From assembly GCF_004135385.1 (NCBI RefSeq), contig NZ_CP035493.1, forward strand, positions 806,001 through 870,000: a DNA stretch of 64,000 nucleotides, given 5' to 3'. The translations under genes were made by a program, and so were the position numbers. The DNA comes from Xylanimonas protaetiae. GTDB taxonomy: Bacteria > Actinomycetota > Actinomycetes > Actinomycetales > Cellulomonadaceae. The notes beneath the pieces were generated by a model that saw nothing but the letters and a program-made list of their open reading frames with translations, had not been told where the DNA came from and did not search any database. Below are positions 43,257-63,018 of this stretch, piece by piece (the stretch's first letter is position 1; each line of letters begins with the position of its first letter).

Positions 43257-43370
43257 GGGTTCGCGCGTTGTCCGCCGCTGGTGCGGCGGACCTGGTCTTC
43301 ACCCGGGGCACCCACCCGCGCGGGGGGTTGCCGTCCGACGAGCCGGGGCTTGGCGTCGGAACTCATGACC
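43257..43370 (-). promoter_or_regulatory. SAM-IV riboswitch A, controlling LLM 1
   Basis: On the minus strand: GGTCATGAG (P1 5' side), GACGCCAAGCCCCGGC, GGCAACCCCC, GGTGGGTGCCCCGGGTGA and GACCAGG, then a 9-bp hairpin GTCCGCCGC-ACCA-GCGGCGGAC and a CGCGCGAACCC tail. This order matches the SAM-IV aptamer consensus of actinobacteria. GAAGGAG for the LLM gene follows at about 20 nt, so translation control is likely. Strongly similar to riboswitch C over its entire length. Confidence 0.88.
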
Positions 43371-43558: not shown

Positions 43559-43688
43559 GGTCACGAGACCCAGCGACAAGCCCCGGCTTGCTGGGCAGCA
43601 ACCCCACGACACGGCGGGGTGCTCCGGGAGATGACCCGGCCGCCGGCCGCCCTCCGGGGCGAGTCGCCGCGCGGCAAGCGTGATCGAC
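43559..43688 (+). promoter_or_regulatory. SAM-IV riboswitch B, controlling the reductase-LLM operon
   Basis: GGTCACGAG, GCGACAAGCCCCGGCTTGCTGG, split here at 43572-43593, GCAACCCC, GGCGGGGTGCTCCGGGAGATGACC region, hairpin near 43640-43665, and the GCGGCAAGCG tail (43671-43680) typical of the SAM-IV 3' pseudoknot. The GAGGAG Shine-Dalgarno of the flavin reductase (about 43690) is immediately adjacent, fitting occlusion of translation by SAM binding. Divergent from riboswitch A. Confidence 0.88.
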
Positions 43689-62825: not shown

Positions 62826-62982
62826 GGGTGTCTCCAGGAAGGGGGTACGCCAAGGCGCGGCGTAGGCCGAGGGGACCCGTCAGGACGACGACGGGCAGCG
62901 GGGTCGAGGGGGACCGCCAGGGGGCGGTGTCGGGAGGTGCTGCGGGGCTGCCGCCCCGGGCCGCAGGTCGCGGCGTCGCGTG

Positions 62983-63018
62983 TCAGCGACAGCTACGACG
63001 ACACAGGCTCCGGTTCAT
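62983..63018 (-). CDS. 11-residue Cys-containing leader peptide
   Basis: ATG 63018 with the excellent Shine-Dalgarno AGGAGG encodes [11 protein letters not shown], ending 157 bp before the transporter gene. It lies between riboswitch C and the operon. Short Cys-bearing peptides upstream of sulfur genes are known in actinobacteria, and in mycobacteria Cys-rich leaders act as cysteine-responsive attenuators. Downstream hairpins CGGGGC-GGCA-GCCCCG and ACCGCC-CCCT-GGCGGT (minus strand, about 62890-62965) could be the responding structures. Function inferred. Confidence 0.65.

Follow-up and report, generated by a model that had tools for sequence, protein, structure and literature searches.

The window analysed here is a stretch of 64,000 nucleotides from Xylanimonas protaetiae, and the locus of interest lies on its minus strand. 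It begins with a SAM-IV riboswitch aptamer (63162-63050 (-)), found by cmscan as a full-length match to the RF00634 covariance model (model positions 1-116), with a score of 84.8 bits (gathering threshold, 38). After a GC-rich stretch and the Shine-Dalgarno sequence AGGAGG (63031-63026 (-), 7 nt before the ATG), a leader ORF of 11 residues starts 31 nt behind the aptamer (63018-62983 (-)), with the codons ATG AAC CGG AGC CTG TGT CGT CGT AGC TGT CGC TGA. Its two Cys codons, at positions 6 and 10, are both UGU. The coordinates, the peptide and the AGGAGG given for this leader in a preliminary description of the locus are correct. The first operon gene follows 157 nt further on (62825-61185 (-)) and encodes, by profile match, the family-5 extracellular solute-binding protein of an ABC transporter (SBP_bac_5, TIGR04028-like; the best NCBIfam match, TIGR04028, reaches 365 bits and stays under the cut-off of 468.5). 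The rest of the transporter, two permeases and then a two-domain ATPase, was also recognized by profile match (61183-57481 (-)). Beyond it, ORFs of the same direction resemble an amino-acid ABC transporter, a luciferase-like MsnO8-family monooxygenase and an alkanesulphonate monooxygenase.

Three possible hairpins can be drawn at the end of the leader. The first one (62990-62975 (-), GUCGC / UGACAC / GCGAC) covers the last Cys-Arg-stop and is unchanged in three of three same-genus sequences; the second one (62974-62960 (-), GCCGC/GCGGC) is paired in all three, one G-C having become G-U. The third one (62958-62943 (-), CGGGGC/GCCCCG) was seen by eye, and the letters of its stem differ in the same-genus relatives. 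From the stop codon onwards, a tract of 110 nt (62982-62873 (-)) is rich in C (0.51) and poor in G (0.30), which makes it a candidate Rho-loading region. On the other side of the locus, a perfect inverted repeat, TGTTGAG-TGTTGCC-CTCAACA (63229-63209 (-)), lies just 5' of the aptamer, likely in the promoter region; on the plus strand, it is also picked up as a terminator followed by a T-rich tail, and it is a candidate operator or terminator. By eye, it is absent from two same-genus relatives. Elsewhere in the window, two divergent SAM-IV aptamers (43258-43370 (-) and 43559-43686 (+)) are each located directly before a gene, without leader peptide.

The search for the same peptide at the orthologous place, proposed in the preliminary description, was successful in two same-genus genomes, which carry MYRSQCRCCCR (G051) and MRRSQTRCCCR (G009), both behind a SAM-IV aptamer (89.8 and 80 bits). 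The three loci share the sequence of their upstream neighbour, which, by eye, we take to be the start of an isocitrate dehydrogenase gene. The alignment of the three is close over the leader and up to the second hairpin, and they drift beyond it. In G051 and G009, the leader is followed first by a luciferase-like gene and not, as in the window, by the binding protein gene, which indicates that the leader was kept while the operon content changed. In another same-genus genome, no Cys leader was found by a blind ORF rule behind any of the six SAM-IV aptamers. A pattern search (GGAG, ATG and TGTCGCTGA) covering 150 family genomes matched 72 of them, against about 30 for the backward control, counted by hand; 11 of the 55 matches listed can be read in frame to Cys-Arg-stop, and the SAM-IV context was checked for the three same-genus rows among these 11. 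Other in-frame short ORFs ending with Cys-Arg-stop were seen in five genomes, MRMILVRILVPCR, MSCAAPTPSCRCR and MRRSCR among them; MRMILVRILVPCR resembles a branched-chain leader.

A family-wide survey gives a view of such ORFs that does not depend on this pattern. It used all 112 SAM-IV matches listed in 53 family genomes, 49 of which had a match, and the first ORF led by a Shine-Dalgarno sequence was taken blindly behind each aptamer. By this rule, 84 of these ORFs are long and 27 are short, while one aptamer has no such ORF. The 27 unselected short ORFs were compared with 995 control short ORFs that this rule yields in other parts of the loci. Their fraction of Cys is 0.0865 versus 0.0273 in controls; 23 of them contain at least one Cys (controls, 441/995) and 18 have one within the last five residues (controls, 134/995). 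The C-terminus is CR in 11 of the 27 versus 16 of the 995, and a CR end or a CC in the last six residues was found in 16/27 versus 25/995 (Fisher p 1.7e-17), the p-values of the whole analysis being too strong since the relatives are not independent. In the two off-frames of the same 27 ORFs, any Cys occurs in 35 of 54 (fraction 0.0423) and none of the 54 has a Cys in the last five residues.

Nineteen of the 27 short ORFs have a Cys in their last eight residues and eight do not. One of the 19, MSVPATPDGCPATSR, which is chance-like and has a G-rich tail, was dropped, leaving 18 accepted leaders. These span 12 of the 25 genera sampled, a spread that does not depend on p-values, and include MRMCCCRH, MRMRCCHP and peptides ending with RSCCR, LECCR, VACCR, CADRCCQR or SCRRSCR. 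The last Cys is 0-4 codons from the stop in these 18 leaders, which were chosen for a Cys near the end. The peptide of the window, with two separated Cys codons, has fewer of them than most of its relatives.

The choice of the Cys codons, to which the selection of leaders was blind, is also peculiar. UGU, rare in the genes located directly behind SAM-IV (30/282, versus 252/282 for UGC), accounts for 41 of the 57 Cys codons of the 19 leaders (UGC, 16/57) and is the final Cys codon in 18 of the 19. A Cys-reading leader stacked on a SAM-IV aptamer, as suggested in the preliminary description, is therefore supported at the level of sequence by the conserved peptide, the Cys enrichment, the UGU bias and the recurrence of the arrangement. 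Charged Arg-tRNA had been put forward there as another possible input. This candidate was rejected, Arg being merely 1.25-fold enriched versus 4.3-fold for Cys in the 18 accepted leaders, a comparison made on leaders that had been picked for Cys near the end. In the same 18 leaders, Met shows a 2.9-fold enrichment (0.037 versus 0.013), often as Arg-Met-Cys.

A scan of the first genes after the leaders took in 12 of the 18 (five leaders gave no gene by the rule and one genome was left out; for G051, the luciferase-like frame was scanned instead of the shorter ORF given by the rule). Eight of these 12 genes encode luciferase-like monooxygenases, one an ABC ATPase, one a solute-binding protein, and two have no match. 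The short Cys-ended ORF hence recurs before genes that, judging from their family membership, would act in sulphur supply.

The two modules are not always associated. Among 30 loci encoding relatives of the binding protein, 19 were scanned with Rfam: five, including the window, have both the SAM-IV aptamer and the Cys leader, five have SAM-IV only, five have the Cys leader only and four have neither in the stretch read. In one of these four, the pair is found one gene further up. The five leaders without SAM-IV, of a Promicromonospora type, use UGU for all their Cys codons except one final UGC. Several of them lie, by eye, behind an inverted repeat CCTATCA...CGATAGG or similar, which may be the operator of an unknown regulator. 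Named genomes gave 80 relatives of the binding protein, 77 of them with enough upstream sequence; the rule found nine matches there versus three on the antisense strand. Six of 11 Streptomyces loci carrying relatives of the operon have a SAM-IV aptamer, and the same six have a different Cys leader that starts exactly 34 nt behind the aptamer and has SCLCR, SCLCQ or GCLCH just one residue short of the C-terminus. Neither SAM-IV nor such a leader was found by the same rule in the other five.

At the level of the class, 13 of the 50 SAM-IV matches read (of 52 outside the own genome) are followed by a short ORF; a few of these ORFs are Cys-rich, several contain Arg-Met-Arg without Cys, and some may be due to chance. 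A GTG-started ORF of six codons, MS[K/Q]RMR, was seen behind SAM-IV in four sampled genomes from one genus of one other family, where it precedes a gene resembling a cysteine desulfurase. Together with MNHHRMRR and MSCQRMPRR, found behind SAM-IV in two other genomes, these peptides are possible Met-codon leaders. One of the family loci associates SAM-IV and MRMCCCRH with a gene encoding an ABC ATPase that looks MetN-like by eye, its profile match being just ABC_tran. In S. lividans, the leader named metL that precedes metNIQ is MSTTSDRTPATEATTTPGARCMCRRMCAF in the accessible part of the report (PMC8079986) and has several Cys; it may belong to the Cys leaders and not to the Met leaders.

The anatomy of the locus, its conservation, the clustering of Cys codons, mostly the rare UGU, at the C-terminus and the C-rich tract that runs from the stop are direct observations. 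The window probably contains a real Cys-codon leader gene whose start is under SAM-IV, the operon being controlled by SAM, Cys and Rho together; all these functions are predicted from sequence. SAM-IV probably gates translation of the leader because leader starts sit about where directly controlled genes start, the median distance from aptamer to start being 30 nt for leaders versus 34 nt for genes directly behind SAM-IV. The suggestion, made previously, that SAM binding could block translation of the peptide fits this spacing. SAM bound to the aptamer would block initiation on the leader, as it likely does at genes directly behind SAM-IV, and the leader would be translated when SAM is low. 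If Cys-tRNA is charged, the ribosome would finish and leave, and the bare C-rich RNA would let Rho stop transcription ahead of the transporter genes. With Cys-tRNA scarce, the ribosome would stall on the UGU codons beside the stop and would cover the Rho-loading region or delay loading, so that the operon is made. The SAM gate and the stalling on Cys codons would thus restrict expression of the operon to conditions of low SAM together with low cysteine.

The step attributed to Rho is suggested by base composition. Over the 110 nt following the stop of the 18 leaders, C minus G is +0.21, versus 0.018 in 1455 coding windows and 0.015 upstream of 111 aptamers. 5'UTRs that carry no leader peptide are also somewhat C-rich: in 18 long ones, from genes directly behind SAM-IV, C minus G reaches 0.10, and the leaders are higher (p 3.4e-6). 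In the 18 leaders, the value jumps at the stop: the final 15 nt of the ORFs give -0.04 and the 15 nt after them +0.25, and it stays positive over the 150 nt looked at. Terminal Cys codons immediately followed by a C-rich tract would be expected if a stalled ribosome keeps Rho off. A stalled leader ribosome can keep Rho off, as in the tna operon. A remark in the same direction is found in the available part of a study of actinobacterial leaders (PMC1262725), in which Seliverstov and colleagues (2005) raised Rho for the mycobacterial cys leaders while calling the prediction weak. The C-rich, G-poor tract starting at the leader stop, joined to the lack of a terminator or Shine-Dalgarno switch, favours a Rho-dependent attenuation.

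The best surviving alternative, which we nevertheless regard as unlikely, is a translational attenuation in which the leader ribosome would control, by RNA pairing, access to the Shine-Dalgarno sequence of the first gene. Such a mode is stated for the Cys leaders of M. smegmatis in the passages seen of papers citing Canestrari 2020, and this sequence is mostly paired in the folds computed here, its mean accessibility being 0.20 in the 13 of 18 leaders whose first gene could be named by the rule. However, masking the RNA covered by a leader ribosome leaves this mean unchanged (0.20 free versus 0.19 stalled, Wilcoxon p 1.0), folding of GC-rich RNA being a weak test, and the first gene is 126-252 nt away from the leader. 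Single leaders shift both ways (0.20 to 0.37 in one genome, 0.48 to 0.06 in G009) and the window goes from 0.43 to 0.45. Unmasking of the Shine-Dalgarno sequence by a stalled ribosome was rejected, given that there is no mean change in these 13 leaders nor a change in the window.

A relay in which the short ORF merely couples the state of the riboswitch to Rho or to mRNA decay, whatever amino acids it encodes, is improbable. A riboswitch acting through a translated uORF is known from the B12 riboswitch of M. tuberculosis (PMC11260477, in the part available), and some SAM-IV aptamers outside the family precede very short Cys-free ORFs such as MSKRMR, but the C-terminal Cys enrichment and the UGU bias would be hard to explain without a role in Cys decoding.

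Slightly less probable still is a classical transcription attenuation, with hairpins competing around the Cys codons. The preliminary description had noted hairpin-forming segments after the leader: they can be formed on paper and the first two are kept in the same-genus relatives, but they show no covariation (among the three same-genus sequences, none of the 10 pairs in these two hairpins has changed at both of its positions) and the fold of the whole stretch from leader to gene is unexceptional (z -1.04; 24 of 200 shuffles as good). The conservation of hairpins over and after the stop speaks for this reading, as does the stretch around the stop, which in 13 leaders folds somewhat better than shuffled sequences (mean z of -1.07, with values from -3.25 to 0.8). 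Against it, the hairpin over the stop is mostly no better than in shuffled sequences: it outperformed every one of 100 shuffles in a single leader out of 19, while 54 of 100 were as good for the window. The idea that a hairpin spanning the stop codon is conserved was rejected on this count and for the missing covariation in three sequences. Furthermore, no stem followed by a U-tract was found on the minus strand between 62780 and 63380, so that attenuation by an intrinsic terminator was rejected too; for want of a U-tract on the leader strand, Rho-dependent attenuation fits better than the hairpin version. Lastly, a chance ORF in a GC-rich 5'UTR is hardly credible: short ORFs led by a Shine-Dalgarno sequence are common and 441 of 995 controls contain Cys, but counterparts of this one exist in two genomes of the same genus and across 12 genera.

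Rho-dependent attenuation under a SAM gate could apply beyond the window. We tentatively put forward, as a serious possibility, a widespread actinobacterial relay in which a SAM riboswitch, instead of acting on its target gene, licenses a ribosome that measures cysteine, i.e., a serial NOR gate for sulphur scavenging that is read by Rho. The sequences suggest that the pairing of SAM-IV with a Cys leader forms a two-input sensor for the supply of SAM and cysteine in many actinobacteria. A bolder extension is that the Met codons of many leaders (Arg-Met-Cys, Arg-Met-Arg) would add charged Met-tRNA as an input. Riboswitches and tRNA-sensing leaders are usually treated as alternative ways of sensing a pathway; here, one sensor would turn the other on. 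If SAM-IV gates the Cys leader, one short RNA would respond both to SAM as end product and to Cys as sulphur donor, and some SAM-IV sites assumed to lie before a gene would actually precede an unannotated peptide. As relatives of the operon exist with SAM-IV only, with the leader only or with both, this logic is directly testable by exchange.

Cys leaders, SAM-IV aptamers and riboswitch-controlled uORFs are each known, and their serial arrangement is the new part: no recognised description of a SAM-IV aptamer followed by a Cys leader was found among the papers listed by searches of the open-access literature. The leaders of actinobacterial cys operons in Mycobacterium and P. acnes have, in the available part of PMC1262725, Cys codons near the stop and no obvious terminator. 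Like the families described by NCBIfam (cis_reg_atten NF042934, leader_Ms4527A NF042936, leader_Ms5788A NF042933), the window leader is a short ORF with Cys codons near the stop; it differs from them by its position behind a SAM-IV aptamer, its own Shine-Dalgarno sequence and its 11 codons. Three of four related leaders pass NF042934, namely a Streptomyces one (27.7 for a cut-off of 27) and those of two other SAM-IV sites (40.2 and 31.4), while a Promicromonospora-type leader does not pass it and three further related leaders have no profile match. The polycysteine sORFs of M. smegmatis (Canestrari 2020, as presented in parts of citing papers) are also short ORFs with Cys codons and provide there a Cys-responsive attenuation of operons. 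However, they are leaderless, whereas the ORF of the window is preceded by AGGAGG and a 5' aptamer, and their Cys codons are contiguous, in contrast to the CRRSC of the window, two same-genus relatives having CCC.

With regard to SAM-IV itself, the aptamer of the window passes the threshold of RF00634 and its distance to the next start is that of directly controlled genes. In the usual case, however, this first start is that of the target gene, whereas here it is that of a leader peptide. A parallel in layout is the M. tuberculosis B12 riboswitch with its uORF uPPE2 (PMC11260477), where the riboswitch governs the translated uORF and this uORF governs the gene, the version of the window being predicted. 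The uORF uPPE2 overlaps its gene and works by termination-reinitiation, the part of that paper available reporting no amino-acid sensing; the leader of the window, in contrast, lies 157 nt from its gene, and its Cys codons recur among its relatives.
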